NCBI RefSeq assembly: GCF_030418305.1 | Contig: NZ_JAUHPX010000004.1 | Location: 62,001-126,000 of the forward strand | From: Demequina lignilytica | Lineage (GTDB): Bacteria; Actinomycetota; Actinomycetes; Actinomycetales; Demequinaceae | DNA length: 64,000 nt | Direction: 5' to 3' | Part shown: positions 39,751 through 46,783 of the stretch, piece after piece | How the letters are laid out: the number at the start of each line of letters is the position of its first letter | Position numbering within the stretch: the stretch's first letter is position 1 | Made by a program: the position numbers and the translations under genes | Notes under the pieces: generated by a model | Seen by the model: only the letters and a program-made list of their open reading frames with translations | Database searches by the model: none | Told to the model about the DNA's origin: nothing

Positions 39751-40461
39751 TCAGCCCGCGACGGGCTCCTCCGCCGCGACCCTCGCCAGCAGGTCGAGCG
39801 TCGCGCGCGCGGACCGGGCCGCGGCATCGTCCAGGTGCTCGTCGAACTCGACTCCCCCGTCGCCCTGGCACATGTCCGACACGCAGCGGAGGGACAGGAA
39901 CGGGATGCCGGACGCGGCGGCGACCTGCGAGACCGCGGCGGACTCCATGTCCGTCGCGATCACCTTGGGGAAGCGCTCGCGGATCAGGTCGACCGTCTCC
40001 GCGACCGCGAAGGCGTTCGCGGAGGCGAGGTAGCCCTTCTTCGCGCCCATCGCGACCGCGAGGTCGACCAGCGCGTCGTCCGACTCGTGGAACTCGGCGT
40101 GGCCGGGGACCTGGCCGTACTCGTAGCCGATCGACGTCGAGTCGGCGGACCAGTCGAGCGAGCAGCACGGCGCCACCAGGTCGCCCACCTGCACGTGACC
40201 GGGGATGCCGCCGCAGGTGCCGGCGGAGACGATCAGCGTGGGCGTGATCCCGCCGATCACCCCATGCGCGGCCAGGGTCGCGGCGCGGGCGGCCGCGACC
40301 ATGCCGATGCGCGTCACCACCAGCAGGTAGGTGACGTCGCCGGACGTCACGAGCCAGGCGTCGTCCGGCGAGTTGAGACCCTCGTGGTGGTCGGAGAGGT
40401 CGAGGAATCCCTGGGCCTCCTCCGGCATCGCGACCAGCACGGCGGGGATGGAGGCGGCCAT
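39751..40461 (-). CDS. mtn: 5'-Methylthioadenosine / S-adenosylhomocysteine nucleosidase
   Basis: It cleaves adenine from S-adenosylhomocysteine and methylthioadenosine, giving S-ribosylhomocysteine for LuxS. The 236-residue PNP-fold protein has VAMPEEAQGFL at the start with the catalytic glutamate. VSAGTCGGI is near residue 80, VIATDMESAAVSQVAAASGIPFLSLRCVSD near residue 175 carries the ribose- and base-binding Glu and Asp, and a helical end follows. Its start overlaps the luxS stop (TGATG). The order luxS-mtn makes a complete SAH-to-homocysteine route that also yields the AI-2 precursor. Confidence 0.92.
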   Translation of the reverse strand: MAASIPAVLVAMPEEAQGFLDLSDHHEGLNSPDDAWLVTSGDVTYLLVVTRIGMVAAARAATLAAHGVIGGITPTLIVSAGTCGGIPGHVQVGDLVAPCCSLDWSADSTSIGYEYGQVPGHAEFHESDDALVDLAVAMGAKKGYLASANAFAVAETVDLIRERFPKVIATDMESAAVSQVAAASGIPFLSLRCVSDMCQGDGGVEFDEHLDDAAARSARATLDLLARVAAEEPVAG

Positions 40462-40931
40462 CAGCGCATCACCGTGAGGAGCTCGTCGGCGTGCGCCGTG
40501 AACTCCGTCACCGCCGCGCGCATCGCGTCGAGCGAGTGGTGCGCCCCCCACCCGCACTGCACCTCGTTCGCGGCGGGGACCTCCTCGAGGTCGAGCATCG
40601 AGGCCATGGTGGCGAGCACCAGGTCCTTGATCTCCTCGGGCGCGTGGTCCCCCGACATGATCAGGTAGAAGCCGGTCTGGCAGCCCATCGGACCGAAGTC
40701 GATGACCTGCGCGCTGTGGTCGCGCACGCACTCGGCGAACGAGTGCTCGATCGAATGGACCGCGGGCATCTCGAGATGGCCGACGTTCGGCTGCGTGAAG
40801 CGCACGTCGAACTTGGTGAGCACGTCGCCGTGAGGCAGCTCCTTGCGGTCAGCCAGCCGGATGAACGGCGCGGCCACGGCGGTGTGGTCCAGGTTGAACG
40901 ACTCGACGTTCATCTTGCGTGGCTCGGTCAC
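40461..40931 (-). CDS. luxS: S-ribosylhomocysteine lyase LuxS
   Basis: It converts S-ribosylhomocysteine to homocysteine and DPD, the precursor of AI-2. The 156-residue protein is of family length. [18 protein letters not shown] opens it. The metal site is [13 protein letters not shown] (His, Glu, His) with the cysteine in [13 protein letters not shown] near residue 128. [12 protein letters not shown] is also conserved. The GTG at 40931 has AAGGA six bases upstream. TACGCT on minus (40969-40964) is a plausible -10. luxS is patchily distributed in actinobacteria. It is divergent from an SAHH-like gene only 86 bases away. Confidence 0.95.
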
Positions 40932-41017: not shown

Positions 41018-42496
41018 ATGACCGACCCGCATGCGACCGCCGAGCGGATCCTCCGTCGCTTCGCCCGCGAGACCAATCTGCTCATCTCAGGGCGCCCCGT
41101 GCGCGTGAGCGCCGAGGCCGAGGACACCGCCGTCGCGCTCGCCGTCGCGGGCATGGCCCGCGCGCTGGGCGCGCGTCTGGTGGAGGACGAGGCGACGAGC
41201 GCGGACGTCCTCGACATCGACGTGCGGGGCGACGATGCGGCGCTGTCCCTGGGCGGCGCGCCGCTCGCGAGCCGGGGTGACGCGGGCGGACGGCTCGACT
41301 TCGCCGCCGCGCACATGCCGGTCTCGACGGCGCTCGCGGAGGAGATCGGCGCGGCGGGCACCGTCCGCGGCCTGCGGGTCGGCGTCGCGATGACCCTCGA
41401 GCCCAAGACCGCGAACCTGGCGCTGCTGCTGCAGGCCGCGGGCGCCGAGGTCGCCGTGTACGCCCACCCCGACGAGACCGATCCCGCGGTCGCGGCCGCC
41501 CTGCGCGCGCGCGGCGTGCCCGTCGACGCCGACGCGACCCTCTCCGGCGAGGCCGAGCGTGCGGCCGCCCTCGCCTGGCTGCGCCGCGGCTTCGACGTGG
41601 TGGTCGACGACGGCTCCCACCTCGTGAGGCTCGCCCACGAGGCGGCACCGGAGCTCGTCGAGTCGTGGATCGGAGTCACCGAGGAGACCACCTCGGGCCT
41701 CACGCCGCTGCGCGCGATGGCGACGCAGGGGGCGCTGCGCACCCCGGTGGTCGCGGTGAACGATGCGGCGACCAAGACCGGCTTCGACAACCGCTACGGC
41801 ACCGGGCAGAGCTGCGTGCTCGCGATCGCGGACCTCATCGAGCACGTCGACGCGACCGTCCGCGACCTGCCCGTCCTGGTGATCGGCTACGGCCCGGTGG
41901 GAGTCGGGGTCGCCGCGCACCTGCGCGCGCTGGGCGCCGAGGTCGCCGTCGCGGAGATCGACCCCGTGCGCGCGCTGCTCGCCGCGCACGACGGCTACCC
42001 GGTGGGTCGCGCCGAGGACCACGCGCCGGGCGCTCTCGTCATCTCCTGCACCGGCGCCCCCGGCACGGTGACCCGCGAGCTGCTGGAGCTCGCGAGCATC
42101 GTCGCGGTCGCGGGCGGCGTGCCCGGCGAGGTGGACCTCGACCTCGCCGCGCTCGAGCCGGTCGAGGTGGCCGGGCGCACCGTGGACCACCTCGACGTCG
42201 ACGTCGAGCGCGGCACGCTCGTCCTGGACCGCGGCGGCTGCATCAACGTCACCGCGGCCGAGGGCAACCCGATCGAGATCATGGACCTGTCCTTCGCCAC
42301 GCAGCTCGCCGCCATCCGGGAGCTCGTCGAGACCCGGCCCGGCCCCGGCGTCCACGCCGTGAGCGACGCGGCGGTGGCGCACGTCGCCGCCACCGCCGCC
42401 CGCGTGCGCGGCGTCGCGCTCGACGCGCGCCCCGCATCGTCCGCCGCGGCCTCGTCCGACTGGCACTCCCCGCGCTACCGGGAGGACCGCGCGTGA
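41018..42496 (+). CDS. Divergent S-adenosylhomocysteinase-like NAD-binding protein
   Basis: This 492-residue protein is clearly of the SAHH superfamily. [33 protein letters not shown] and the Rossmann motif [15 protein letters not shown] with AEIDP align in order. However, key positions differ. The usual L-H-M-T-x-[QE]-T-A block reads M-T-L-E-P-K-T-A, the N-x-G-H-F-D motif reads A-G-G-V-P-G, and A-M-G-H-P reads A-E-G-N-P. Three conserved histidines are thus absent, and the K-P-x-H-Y-R-Y tail is not recognisable. The substrate is probably not SAH itself. It overlaps an amidohydrolase gene by GTGA and is divergent from luxS. Confidence 0.8.
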
Positions 42497-43797
42497 CCAC
42501 GATCGTCTTCAGCGCCGCCCTGGTGCTGCCCATGACCGCACCGCCCGTCCTCGACGGCGCGATCGCGGTGCGCGGACGGCGGATCGTCCACGTCGGCGAG
42601 CGTGCCTGGGTGGTCGAGGCCCTGCGCGAGAGCGGGCACGAGTTCACGGAGCATCGCTGGGACGGCGTGCTCATGCCGGGGCTCATCAACGCCCACACCC
42701 ACCTGCAGTACACGGGCATGGCGTCGGTGGGTCAGGGTCGCTACACCGGCTTCGAGGACTGGGCGCTGGCGTTCAACCCGGTCTACGAGCGCGGGCAGGA
42801 CTGGCGCGCCGCCGCGGCCGCCGGTGCCCGCATGGCGCTCGAGGCGGGCACCACCGCCGTCGCGGACGTGGTCACCGACCTCGAGGCGATGTACGCGCTC
42901 GCCGATGCCGGGCTGCACGGCATCACCTACTGGGAGGTGATGGACTGGACCAACGCCGCGTGGCGCGAGCGCGGTCGGGCCCAGGTCGAGGCGGCGCTCG
43001 ACGCGCTTCCCACTCCCCCGGGCACCGGGCTCAGCCCCCACGCGCCGTACTCCCTCGAGATCGTGCCGCTGCTCGACATCCCCGACATCGTCCGCGAGCG
43101 CGGCAGCCGCATCCACATCCACCTGGGCGAGTCCGCCATCGAGCGGGAGTTCTCCCACACGGTGGCCGAGCCGTGGCAGCGCAAGGGACTGGGCTCGCTG
43201 TCCGAGCTGCGGTCGGCCGGCTACGGCACCTCGGCGACGGACTACGTCGACCACCTCGGCGTGCTGGGTCCCGACTGCCACATCGCGCACGGCGTCTACC
43301 TCTCCGCGAAGGACCGCGCGATCCTCCGGGCGCGCGGCACCTCCGTCGCGCTGTGCCCGCGCTCCAACGAGGTGATCGGCCTCGACGAGCCCCCGGTCGC
43401 CGCCTACCTCACCGAGGGCAGTCCGATCTCCGTAGGCACGGACTCGCTGTCGTCGGCGCCGAGCCTGGACCTGATGGGCGACGTGGCGGCGCTGTACGCG
43501 ATGGCCCGCCGGCAGGGCTACGACCGCCCCGACCTCGCGGAGCGGCTGCTCGCCGCCGCCACCCACGGCGGCTCTCGCGCGATGGGCCTGCACATGGGTC
43601 CGGACCGCACCGGCTACCTCGCGGTCGGCGCCCGCGCCGACCTCGCGTTCCTCGACGTCCCCGTGGGCGACCTCGCGACGTCGATCGACGACCTGGCCCG
43701 CGCAGGCGACGGCCACGCCGTCGCCACCGTCGTCGCGGGCCGGCTGCGCCACGCCACCGCATCGTTCACCTCCCAGACCGGAGCGTCGCTCACATGA
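42493..43797 (+). CDS. Amidohydrolase of the MtaD/SsnA type (nucleoside deaminase-like)
   Basis: This 434-residue metal-dependent hydrolase has all zinc-site elements: PGLINAHTHLQYTG near residue 65, HIHLGESAIEREF near residue 210 (His plus catalytic Glu), CHIAHGVYLS near residue 260, and VGTDSLSSAPSLDL near residue 315. The HxHxGE and GTDSLSS forms match the MTA/SAH/adenosine deaminase and aminofutalosine deaminase group. Given the SAHH-like partner, deamination of SAH or a related purine thioether is an attractive guess but unproven. The start overlaps the upstream stop, and its stop overlaps the cupin start. Confidence 0.8.
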   Translation: MTTIVFSAALVLPMTAPPVLDGAIAVRGRRIVHVGERAWVVEALRESGHEFTEHRWDGVLMPGLINAHTHLQYTGMASVGQGRYTGFEDWALAFNPVYERGQDWRAAAAAGARMALEAGTTAVADVVTDLEAMYALADAGLHGITYWEVMDWTNAAWRERGRAQVEAALDALPTPPGTGLSPHAPYSLEIVPLLDIPDIVRERGSRIHIHLGESAIEREFSHTVAEPWQRKGLGSLSELRSAGYGTSATDYVDHLGVLGPDCHIAHGVYLSAKDRAILRARGTSVALCPRSNEVIGLDEPPVAAYLTEGSPISVGTDSLSSAPSLDLMGDVAALYAMARRQGYDRPDLAERLLAAATHGGSRAMGLHMGPDRTGYLAVGARADLAFLDVPVGDLATSIDDLARAGDGHAVATVVAGRLRHATASFTSQTGASLT

Positions 43798-44231
43798 CCG
43801 TCCCCGAGACCGCCGCCGCGCTGCACCTCGAGCCGCACCCCGAGGGCGGCTGGTTCCGCCGCACCTACACGTCCGAGATCCCGGTCGCGACCGCGGGCGG
43901 CGAGCGCCCCGCGGCGACGCTGATCCACTACCTGCTCGCTCCCGGCGAGCACTCCGCGTGGCACGTGGTCAGCTCGGACGAGATCTGGCTGTGGCACGGG
44001 CCCGGCCGTCTGGAGCTGTCGCTCGGCGGCCGGGGCGCTGAGCCCGACGAGGAGGCCACCCGGATCGTGCTCGGGCCGGCGCCGCTCGACGACGAGGCGG
44101 CCCAGGGCATCGTCCCTGCCGGGACGTGGCAGGCCGCGCGCCTCCTGGACGATGCGGAATGCCTGGTCAGCTGCATGGTGTCGCCCGGGTTCTCCTTCGC
44201 GGACTGGCGGCTGGCGCCGCCGGTAGACTAG
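43794..44231 (+). CDS. DUF985 cupin protein
   Basis: The 145-residue cupin of the DUF985 family has LEPHPEGGWFRRTY near residue 12, TLIHYLLAPGEHSAWHVVSSDEIWLWHGPGRLEL near residues 40-75, and the C-terminal CLVSCMVSPGFSFADWRL. The double-stranded beta-helix fold can bind sugar phosphates or metals. The family has no agreed activity. It overlaps the amidohydrolase by ATGA, so it is part of the same translation unit and may act on the same substrate. Confidence 0.85.
   Translation: MTVPETAAALHLEPHPEGGWFRRTYTSEIPVATAGGERPAATLIHYLLAPGEHSAWHVVSSDEIWLWHGPGRLELSLGGRGAEPDEEATRIVLGPAPLDDEAAQGIVPAGTWQAARLLDDAECLVSCMVSPGFSFADWRLAPPVD
44224..44229 (+). promoter_or_regulatory. Possible -10 box for the ABC importer genes
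   Basis: TAGACT overlaps the last codons of the cupin gene, about 60 bases before the lipoprotein start, which has its own AAGGAG. The importer can therefore be expressed from its own promoter as well as by read-through. Confidence 0.4.
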
Positions 44232-44290: not shown

Positions 44291-45160
44291 ATGACCACCC
44301 GCGCCCGTGCCGCCCTCATCGCGACCGCCTCCCTGTCCGCGCTGATCATGGCGGGCTGCTCCTCGACCTCCTCGGACTCCGAGAGCTCGGCGTCGAGCAC
44401 CCCCGAGCCCACCGCATCGTCCGCCGTCGAGCTCGAGACCCTCACCGAGGGCAAGCTCACCATTGCGACCGGCGAGCCCGCCTACGAGCCGTGGGTCGTG
44501 AACGACGACCCGGCCTCGGGCGAGGGCTTCGAGGCCGCCGTGGCCTACGCCGTCGCCGAGGAGCTCGGCTTCGCCGCCGACGACGTGGTGTGGGTCCGCT
44601 CGAGCTTCGACTCGGCCATCGCCCCCGGCGCCAAGGACTGGGACCTCAACATCCAGCAGTTCTCGATCACCGAGGAGCGCAAGGCCGCCGTCGACTTCTC
44701 GTCGCCGTACTACACGACCACGCAGGCCGTCGTGACGGTCGAGGGTTCGGCCGCCGCCGACGCCACCACGGTCGAGGCCCTCGCCGGGCTCGCCGTGGGC
44801 GTGCCGTCGGGCACCACCTCGTACACCATCGCCGCCGAGGTGCTCGGCGAGGACAACCTCTCCGTGTTCAACTCCTCGGAGGACACGGTCCTCGCGCTCA
44901 ACTCGGGCCAGATCGACGCGTTCGTGATCGACCTGCCGTCGGCGTTCTACCTCGCCGCGGTCGAGCTCGACGGCGGCGTCATCCTCGGTCAGTTCGAGGA
45001 CGCCACCGGCGGCGACGAGTTCGGCTTCGTGCTCCCCAAGGGCTCCGCGCTGACCGAGCCCGTCACCGCCGCCGTGGACGCGCTCCGCGAGGACGGCACG
45101 CTCGCCTCGATCGAGGCCGAGTGGCTGTCGGACGCGGTCGACGTCCCGGTCCTCAAGTAA
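44291..45160 (+). CDS. Amino-acid-type ABC transporter substrate-binding lipoprotein
   Basis: The 289-residue protein starts with a lipoprotein signal ending in LIMAGCSS (lipobox cysteine near residue 23) and a Ser-rich linker. The family 3 solute-binding fold follows: LTIATGEPAYEPWV, GEGFEAAVAYAVAEELGF, WDLNIQQFSITEERKAAVDFSSPYYTT and VGVPSGTTSY. Family 3 proteins bind polar amino acids or opines. The usual arginine of the alpha-carboxylate site is not obvious in the ITEERKAAVDFS segment, where SITPERAKAVDFS would be normal. The ligand is unknown. An amino-acid thioether would suit the operon. Confidence 0.88.
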   Translation: MTTRARAALIATASLSALIMAGCSSTSSDSESSASSTPEPTASSAVELETLTEGKLTIATGEPAYEPWVVNDDPASGEGFEAAVAYAVAEELGFAADDVVWVRSSFDSAIAPGAKDWDLNIQQFSITEERKAAVDFSSPYYTTTQAVVTVEGSAAADATTVEALAGLAVGVPSGTTSYTIAAEVLGEDNLSVFNSSEDTVLALNSGQIDAFVIDLPSAFYLAAVELDGGVILGQFEDATGGDEFGFVLPKGSALTEPVTAAVDALREDGTLASIEAEWLSDAVDVPVLK

Positions 45161-45179: not shown

Positions 45180-46046
45180 ATGACGGACCGGGCGGCCGTG
45201 GAGGCCTTCTCCCCGAGCGCGCTGGAGCTGGATCGCCGGCTCCACCGCCGGCGGGCCTCCCGCCGCTCGGTCCTCATCGCACTGGTCTCGACGCTGGCGT
45301 TCGCCGGGGTCGGGGGCTGGCTGGTGGTGACGTCCCCCGGGTGGGACGGCGTCCGCCAGATGTTCTTCAACCTCGAGATCGCGGCCGACTCGTTCCCGAA
45401 GATCCTCGAGGGGCTGTGGCTCAACATCCGAGTGCTGTTCTTCGCGACCATCGCCGTCGCCGTGGTGGCGACGCTGCTCGCGGTCATGCGCTCGCTGCGG
45501 GGGCCCGTGTGGTTCCCGCTGCGCGCGATCGCGACGGGCTACACGGACCTGTTCCGCGGGCTGCCGGTGCTGATCGTGCTGTACCTGGTGGGCTTCGGCG
45601 TCCCCGCGCTCAACCCCGAGACCCGCATCCCCATCGCGGTGCTCGGCACCGTCGGCATCTCGCTGTGCTACTCGGCGTACGTCGCCGAGGTGCTGCGTGC
45701 CGGCATGGAGGCGGTCCACCCGTCGCAGCGCATCGCCGCGCGCTCCCTGGGGCTGTCGCACGCGAAGACGCTGCGCATGGTGGTGATCCCGCAGGCCCTG
45801 CGCAAGGTCGTGCCGGCGCTGATGAACGACTTCGTGTCGATGCAGAAGGACGTGGGCCTGATCTCCGTGCTGGGCGCCGTCGACGCGGTGCGTGCCGCGC
45901 AGATCGTCACCGCGCAGACGTACAACTTCACCCCCTACGTGGTGGCGGGACTGCTGTTCGTCGCGATGAGCTTCCCGATGATCCGCCTGACCGACACCGT
46001 GTCGGCACGGATGGCGCGGCGCGAGCAGCAGGGAGGGACCGTATGA
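45180..46046 (+). CDS. Amino-acid ABC transporter permease
   Basis: This 288-residue HisM/GlnP-type permease has a basic N-terminus and about five membrane segments. ILEGLWLNIRVLFFATI starts the core. The conserved YTDLFRGLPVLIVLYLVGFG is near residue 120, and the cytoplasmic EAA loop VLRAGMEAVHPSQRIAARSLGLSHAKTLRMVVIPQALRKVVPAL near residue 175 couples to the ATPase. A single permease gene implies a homodimer. It overlaps the ATPase by ATGA. Confidence 0.92.
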   Translation: MTDRAAVEAFSPSALELDRRLHRRRASRRSVLIALVSTLAFAGVGGWLVVTSPGWDGVRQMFFNLEIAADSFPKILEGLWLNIRVLFFATIAVAVVATLLAVMRSLRGPVWFPLRAIATGYTDLFRGLPVLIVLYLVGFGVPALNPETRIPIAVLGTVGISLCYSAYVAEVLRAGMEAVHPSQRIAARSLGLSHAKTLRMVVIPQALRKVVPALMNDFVSMQKDVGLISVLGAVDAVRAAQIVTAQTYNFTPYVVAGLLFVAMSFPMIRLTDTVSARMARREQQGGTV

Positions 46047-46783
46047 GCGCCTCCGTCCTCGAGCTGCACGGCGTCCACAAGCTCTTCGGTGACAACCACG
46101 TGCTCCGCGGCGTCGACCTCACGGTCGCATCGCACGAGGTGGTCGTGGTGATCGGCGCCTCCGGATCCGGCAAGTCCACCCTGATGCGGACCATCAACCT
46201 GATCGAGCGGGTCGACGACGGCCGCATCCTGCTCTCGGGTGACGACATCACGGCACCCGACGTGGACGTCGACAAGGTGCGCGCGCGCATCGGCGTGGTG
46301 TTCCAGCACTTCAACCTGTTCCCGCACATGCGGGTGATCGACAACGTCACCCTGGCCGCGCGCAAGGTCCACGGGATCGAGGCGTCCGTCGCGCGCGAGA
46401 AGGCCGTCGGGCTGCTGTCGACATTCGGGCTGGCGGAGAAGGTCGACGACTACCCCGACCGGCTCTCGGGCGGCCAGCAGCAGCGCGTCGCGATCGTGCG
46501 CGCGATCATGACGGACCCGGAGCTCCTGCTGCTCGACGAGATCACCTCGGCGCTCGACCCCATGCTGGTCGGCGAGGTGCTCGACCTGGTGCGCGACCTC
46601 AAGGCGCAGGGCTCGACCATGCTGATGGCGACGCACGAGATGAGCTTCGCCCGCTCGGTGGCCGACCGCATCGTCTTCATGCACGGCGGCCGCCCGCTCG
46701 AGGTGGGCCCGCCGGAGCAGATCTTCGAGGACCCGCAGCATCCCGAGACCCGCGAGTTCCTGGCGCGCCTCACGCACCGCTGA
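46043..46783 (+). CDS. Amino-acid ABC transporter ATP-binding protein
   Basis: This 246-residue ATPase of the GlnQ/HisP group has Walker A IGASGSGKSTLMRTINLIE near residue 35, Q-loop GVVFQHFNLFPHMRVIDN, signature LSGGQQQRVAIVRAI near residue 145, Walker B LLLLDEITSALDPMLVGEVL and switch ATHEMSFARSVADR. The DEITSALDP wording is the polar-amino-acid subfamily form, slightly altered from DEPTSALDP. It is the last gene of the operon, followed by palindromic repeats. Confidence 0.94.
   Translation: MSASVLELHGVHKLFGDNHVLRGVDLTVASHEVVVVIGASGSGKSTLMRTINLIERVDDGRILLSGDDITAPDVDVDKVRARIGVVFQHFNLFPHMRVIDNVTLAARKVHGIEASVAREKAVGLLSTFGLAEKVDDYPDRLSGGQQQRVAIVRAIMTDPELLLLDEITSALDPMLVGEVLDLVRDLKAQGSTMLMATHEMSFARSVADRIVFMHGGRPLEVGPPEQIFEDPQHPETREFLARLTHR

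Follow-up and report, generated by a model that had tools for sequence, protein, structure and literature searches.

What reaction, if any, is carried out by an SAHH homolog that lacks three conserved histidines? The question is raised by a locus in the window analysed here, a 64,000-nucleotide stretch of the Demequina lignilytica genome (contig NZ_JAUHPX010000004.1, positions 62,001 to 126,000). The open reading frame at 41018-42496 is intact, and its product is an SAHH homolog that matched PF05221 (AdoHcyase) and PF00670 (AdoHcyase_NAD) in Pfam. The gene and the codons discussed below are as follows, positions having been assigned by alignment.

41018..42496, forward strand: SAHH-like protein of 492 residues, with the core starting at about residue 90; family assigned by sequence and predicted fold (pLDDT 94)
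41018..41272, forward strand: small extra N-terminal alpha/beta domain, residues 1-85
41393..41395, forward strand: Thr126 codon, corresponding to human His55; T, V, M or F in the clade
41399..41407, forward strand: Glu128-Pro129-Lys130 codons, with the E and K of the HxExK (SIH) fingerprint
41606..41608, forward strand: Asp197 codon, corresponding to human Asp131, the C4' base, kept
41774..41791, forward strand: Lys253 to Asn258 codons, with human K186, D190 and N191 kept
42107..42121, forward strand: codons 364-368, V-A-G-G-V replacing the N-x-G-H-F molecular gate (His301 to Gly367, Phe302 to Val368)
42266..42268, forward strand: Asn417 codon, corresponding to human His353

The best matches of the protein in the PDB were the Thermotoga SAHH and the Methanococcus SIHH (E values of 5e-55 to 3e-51). 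A ligand-free AlphaFold2 model, built with 37 relatives, had a mean pLDDT of 94 and resembled 3X2F with a TM-score of 0.88 (normalised on target length). Together with the Pfam matches, the predicted model indicated that the SAHH fold with its NAD-binding domain is present. The SAHH from Thermotoga maritima (3X2E/3X2F) was the best match in both structure and sequence (33-34% identity) and shares the LExKTA block, but unlike the protein studied here it retains all three histidines. Residues 1-85 gave no match in Pfam. At the other end, a conserved D-W-R/H-S-P-R-Y tail closes the members of the operon lineage (Arg486 was invariant, n=38 sequences), and could be a stand-in for the C-terminal Lys/Tyr of canonical SAHH.

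We mapped the active-site residues by fully aligning the protein with enzymes of the canonical, Thermotoga and archaeal types. Human residue numbers were transferred by motif rather than by aligning the human sequence itself. A preliminary description of this DNA, made by eye, had read the counterparts of His55, His301 and His353 as Thr, Val and Asn. Thr126 and Asn417 were recovered in the full alignment. The Val call was one column off, as Gly367 occupies the position of His301 and Val368 that of Phe302; the gate motif NxGHFxxEI is thus changed to VAGGVPGEV. Careful alignment had been named as the way in which the histidines might be restored, and it did not restore them. Among 82 members of the clade to which the protein belongs (see below), position 55 was occupied by Thr (27), Val (51), Met (1) or Phe (3), position 301 by Gly and position 353 by Asn in every case, and His was found at none of the three positions in any member. 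The alignment and these counts rule out histidines at shifted positions. On the other hand, D131, K186, D190 and N191 were kept in 82/82 members, and retention of the NAD site, the E-E-T-T motif and V-N-D-x-x-T-K-x-x-F-D-N, as first described, was confirmed.

The dN/dS ratio of the gene between Demequina species was 0.25-0.38, indicating purifying selection. Taking into account that the substitutions are fixed across 82 members in which the redox residues are invariant, chance or sequencing error does not explain them. Decay to a pseudogene was likewise ruled out by the near-universal intactness of the gene in relatives, the same ratio and the same residues. A catalytically dead regulatory paralog might also have lost three histidines, as in AHCYL1/IRBIT, another diverged SAHH homolog. 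AHCYL1/IRBIT is a vertebrate regulatory protein, with neither an operon nor a conserved metabolic partner. Such a role is extremely improbable here, since the redox residues are invariant, purifying selection acts on the gene, and its operon, which also encodes an importer and a deaminase-type protein, is fixed.

The base-recognition motif was then compared with those of characterised enzymes. HxTxE(Q), the adenine motif, is replaced by TLEPK in the D. lignilytica protein. HxTxE(Q) goes with SAH, while HxExK is the motif of characterised enzymes that prefer SIH and favour hypoxanthine substrates, with Glu placed at N1 and Lys at O6 of hypoxanthine (PMC10978960). L-E-x-K-T-A is the usual block in the Thermotoga, Methanococcus and related enzymes, and reads LEAKTA in both 3X2E and 7R3A. 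The adenine block had been described as rewritten to E-P-K-T-A; what we observed is the E/K half of the published HxExK, with only the His lost. The base site therefore resembles that of SIH hydrolases, save for the motif His. The Glu and Lys, together with the Thr of base recognition, were present in 82/82 members. The proposal that redox chemistry is retained on a different substrate, rather than decaying, was supported by the conserved redox and C4'-base residues, selection, the clade, the operon and the other routes of SAH recycling described below. The use of E-P-K-T-A as an argument for a different substrate pointed in the wrong direction, as this block groups the protein with the hypoxanthine-recognising SIH hydrolases.

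A phylogeny had been suggested as a check for a distinct clade. In a maximum-likelihood tree, the operon genes fell on one side of a branch with support of 95/75 alone and 100/100 when the homolog from genome G368 was included, and a second tree including the homolog Ros_B from a Roseateles plasmid also gave 100/100. The stem of the clade was long, and none of the characterised enzymes included in the trees, SAHH among them, fell inside it. Named relatives belong to Demequina, Microbacterium, Agromyces, Frigoribacterium, Salinibacterium, Leifsonia, Frondihabitans and Curtobacterium. Across 395 sampled genomes from the class, just two more, G368 and G422, carried clear members, and G422 has a complete six-gene operon. 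With Ros_B on a proteobacterial plasmid, the clade reaches beyond Actinomycetota. It is a real, conserved and uncharacterised branch of a well-known family. Separately, a plasmid of Rubrobacter radiotolerans carries an SAHH homolog (L151:6947-8212), annotated as adenosylhomocysteinase, in which His55 is replaced by Pro and the gate His by Gly while GHP is kept; it fell outside the clade in the tree.

The SAHH-like gene is the first of six genes in an operon found across Demequina and Microbacteriaceae. The five genes that follow it are listed below.

42493..43797, forward strand: amidohydrolase of the adenosine/MTA/SAH/aminofutalosine deaminase branch; starts with GTG, overlapping the preceding stop codon (GTGA)
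43794..44231, forward strand: DUF985 cupin; starts with ATG, again overlapping the preceding stop codon (ATGA)
44291..45160, forward strand: solute-binding lipoprotein of the polar-amino-acid type; R127 and D211 invariant
45180..46046, forward strand: permease of the ABC importer, polar-amino-acid type
46040..46783, forward strand: ATPase of the ABC importer, polar-amino-acid type

Nearly every locus of sufficient length kept this order; for G+C-rich neighbour loci, a gene call counted only if tblastn concurred. As exceptions, the transporter genes are divergent at two Frondihabitans loci, and no cupin match was found at the Frigoribacterium sp. JB110 and Microbacterium halotolerans loci. The model of the amidohydrolase was nearest to adenosine/MTA deaminases (4DZH, 4F0R and 4GBD), with TM0936 and aminofutalosine deaminases also matching. 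Its HxH, HxxE, H and D metal and catalytic residues (H68, H70, H210, E213, H266 and D317) were invariant (n=36 sequences) and its dN/dS ratio was 0.12-0.41; its score was far below every curated deaminase equivalog cut-off. In the solute-binding protein, R127 and D211, the Arg and Asp by which this family usually binds an alpha-amino acid, were invariant (n=29 sequences). We did not find the operon in the open-access literature searched, the coverage of which is incomplete and leaves its absence there unproven.

Two genes encoded divergently beside the operon, and outside it, concern the recycling of SAH.

39751..40461, reverse strand: MTA/SAH nucleosidase (MTAN/Pfs), companion of LuxS, assigned by Pfam
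40461..40928, reverse strand: LuxS, the housekeeping route for SAH

LuxS was present in 10 of 47 Demequinaceae genomes, and none of these 10 had a full-length canonical SAHH; those with canonical SAHH are without LuxS, and most genomes without LuxS have SAHH. In D. lignilytica itself, LuxS and MTAN are present and no canonical SAHH was found in the genome. The SAHH-like gene accompanies both routes, occurring in all 10 LuxS genomes and in most of those with canonical SAHH, which rules it out as the sole recycler of SAH. LuxS and MTAN are not parts of the system either: they are lineage-specific neighbours, adjoining the operon at only a subset of the Demequina loci and at none in Microbacteriaceae. 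As it is limited in this way, the adjacency is probably incidental. The mutual exclusion of LuxS and SAHH within one genus suggests a switch of the SAH-recycling route; in genome G028, a weak match to SAHH that contains a stop (C5:249051-249332) may be a relic.

These results bear on the possibility that the protein is an ordinary SIH (or SAH) hydrolase in which other acids or water replace the histidines, forming with the deaminase a bacterial counterpart of the archaeal DadD/SIHH-type route. The Glu and Lys of HxExK are kept, a deaminase-type gene is in the operon, and SIHH-type enzymes are among the closest solved structures. Nevertheless, we regard this as fairly unlikely, as His at position 55 or 301 was seen in 0/82 members and LuxS or canonical SAHH already recycles SAH in the Demequinaceae that carry the gene. 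A third argument comes from AgmF, an SAHH-like angustmycin dehydratase that does not accept SAH: its H56 and H299, equivalent to His55 and His301, are essential, and the H56A and H299A variants are inactive (PMC8599513). AgmF provides a precedent for an SAHH-fold enzyme that recycles NAD on another substrate. The protein studied here differs in lacking both essential histidines and in its gene context, and without the equivalents of H56 and H299 an AgmF-type dehydratase is unsupported.

Among the closest known systems is SIHH (EC 3.13.1.9; for example Methanococcus maripaludis 7R3A). The fold, NAD site, Lys/Asp/Asn and Asp of that enzyme, as well as the E and K of HxExK and a deaminase-type partner (DadD in the archaeal route, a putative deaminase here), are common to both systems. 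In contrast, the clade has T/V/M/F for the catalytic His, Gly-Val for the His-Phe of the gate and GNP for GHP, and the system adds an N-terminal domain and a six-gene operon with an importer and a cupin, and is not the only SAH route of the cell. The protein thus seems to combine a redox half like that of SAHH and SIHH with the absence of defining features of both families, and we have filed the branch under neither for this reason.

The pair of SAHH-like and amidohydrolase genes is kept in three genomic contexts whose importers are unrelated. A plasmid record of Roseateles sp. XES5 (flagged UNVERIFIED_ORG) carries two tandem SAHH-like genes. In the first copy, the histidines are the ordinary ones apart from the gate, which reads GHH. 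The second, Ros_B, reads VLEPKTA, AGGG and GNPIEVMD, and is 44.6% identical to the D. lignilytica protein over residues 92-437; it is without the C-terminal tail. The same gene run includes an amidohydrolase 43% identical to that of the operon (the next-best match on the plasmid being 29%), a sugar-type ABC importer and an inosine-uridine nucleoside hydrolase. In G368, the pair lies beside a nucleoside hydrolase, a sugar-type importer and an NtaA/DmoA-family flavin monooxygenase. The FMN monooxygenase gene (L131:3368-4738) follows the SAHH-like and amidohydrolase genes, and may hint at a substrate that contains sulfur. The invariant core is therefore the SAHH-like protein, the amidohydrolase and some importer, and a nucleoside hydrolase recurs; the D. 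lignilytica genome has one nucleoside hydrolase, away from the operon. Most members of the operon lineage in Micrococcales have the extra N-terminal domain, and the Roseateles and G368 homologs do not. As the latter two share the substitutions, it is unlikely that this domain supplies replacement catalytic residues.

Sugar-type importers in two lineages, the breadth of the amidohydrolase superfamily and the unexplained cupin would be compatible with an SAHH-like enzyme acting on a non-nucleoside sugar or cyclitol, with the amidohydrolase acting on a non-purine. We consider this very unlikely, given the E, K and T of base recognition in 82/82 members, an amidohydrolase structurally nearest to adenosine-type deaminases, and the nucleoside hydrolases close by. 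An NAD-dependent nucleoside oxidoreductase or C3'/C4' epimerase, in which the retained Lys/Asp/Asn and Asp197 oxidise and deprotonate the sugar and nothing leaves C5', would account for the retention of precisely the oxidation and C4'-H residues and the loss of the leaving-group acid; nucleoside hydrolase genes are close by in two lineages. This too is unlikely: the missing gate suggests that a 5' substituent has to be accommodated. To our knowledge, no SAHH relative has either activity as its main one, which also counts against it.

Taking these results together, we consider it somewhat probable that the protein takes part in nucleoside catabolism as an active, NAD-dependent enzyme with the SAHH fold, acting on a 5'-substituted hypoxanthine nucleoside without the usual acid. 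We infer its substrate, reaction and order of steps from the sequence, fold, conservation, operon and cross-phylum core, all of which were observed. The importer of the operon would take up a 5'-substituted adenosine, probably with an amino-acid part, which is uncertain because two lineages have sugar-type importers. The amidohydrolase would deaminate adenine to hypoxanthine, to be recognised by the SAHH-like enzyme via Glu128 and Lys130. The 3'-OH would then be oxidised with NAD (Lys253, Asp257 and Asn258), Asp197 would take the C4' proton, and the 5' substituent would leave without the general acid (His55) or the gate His (His301) used by SAHH. The product nucleoside would subsequently be salvaged.

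Such a reaction would suit a leaving group able to depart unprotonated, for example from a sulfonium, with S-inosylmethionine giving methionine. No acid would be required, as the leaving group is a neutral thioether, and this would explain why the acid and the gate His are swapped for small or hydrophobic residues; those at position 55 would fit. The specific route, in which imported S-adenosylmethionine is deaminated to S-inosylmethionine, and 3'-oxidation followed by beta-elimination then yields inosine and methionine, is nonetheless quite unlikely, and other good leaving groups fit equally well. Two points count against the acid-free scheme: residues beyond the aligned positions could supply an acid, and the cupin is without a role.

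SAHH is treated as among the most conserved enzymes, and the His-Phe pair of the gate is highly conserved across all domains of life (PMC10978960). Even in one well-studied diverged relative, AgmF, both histidines are essential. The existence of a branch that lacks both, and that is linked in more than one phylum with an importer and a deaminase-type gene, suggests a route of nucleoside catabolism not yet described. This natural loss also offers a way to test what the acid and gate histidines do. As for annotation, the D. lignilytica protein scored 274.6 against the cut-off of 275 of NCBIfam NF004005, the other SAHH equivalog cut-offs being far above, and the Roseateles homolog scored over NF004005 and is annotated as adenosylhomocysteinase. 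With one member just under this cut-off and another over it, genes of this kind are probably misnamed in annotations and misrepresented in metabolic models.

We also noticed a second, separate SAHH-like clade, in which the catalytic and gate His are kept, the base motif is H[LIV]E[PA]KT, D190 is replaced by Glu, and GNS, GDP or GNP is found for GHP. Its members are listed below.

L154:7989-9137, L135:5302-6507, L132:4486-5658, L134:5392-6597, L153:7935-9143 and L155:7977-9137

This clade occurs in nucleoside-catabolism clusters of Vibrio nigripulchritudo and genome G336. Both clusters include a nucleoside hydrolase and a ribokinase; the one in Vibrio also has a NupC-type transporter and an adenosine deaminase, and the one in G336 an ABC importer.
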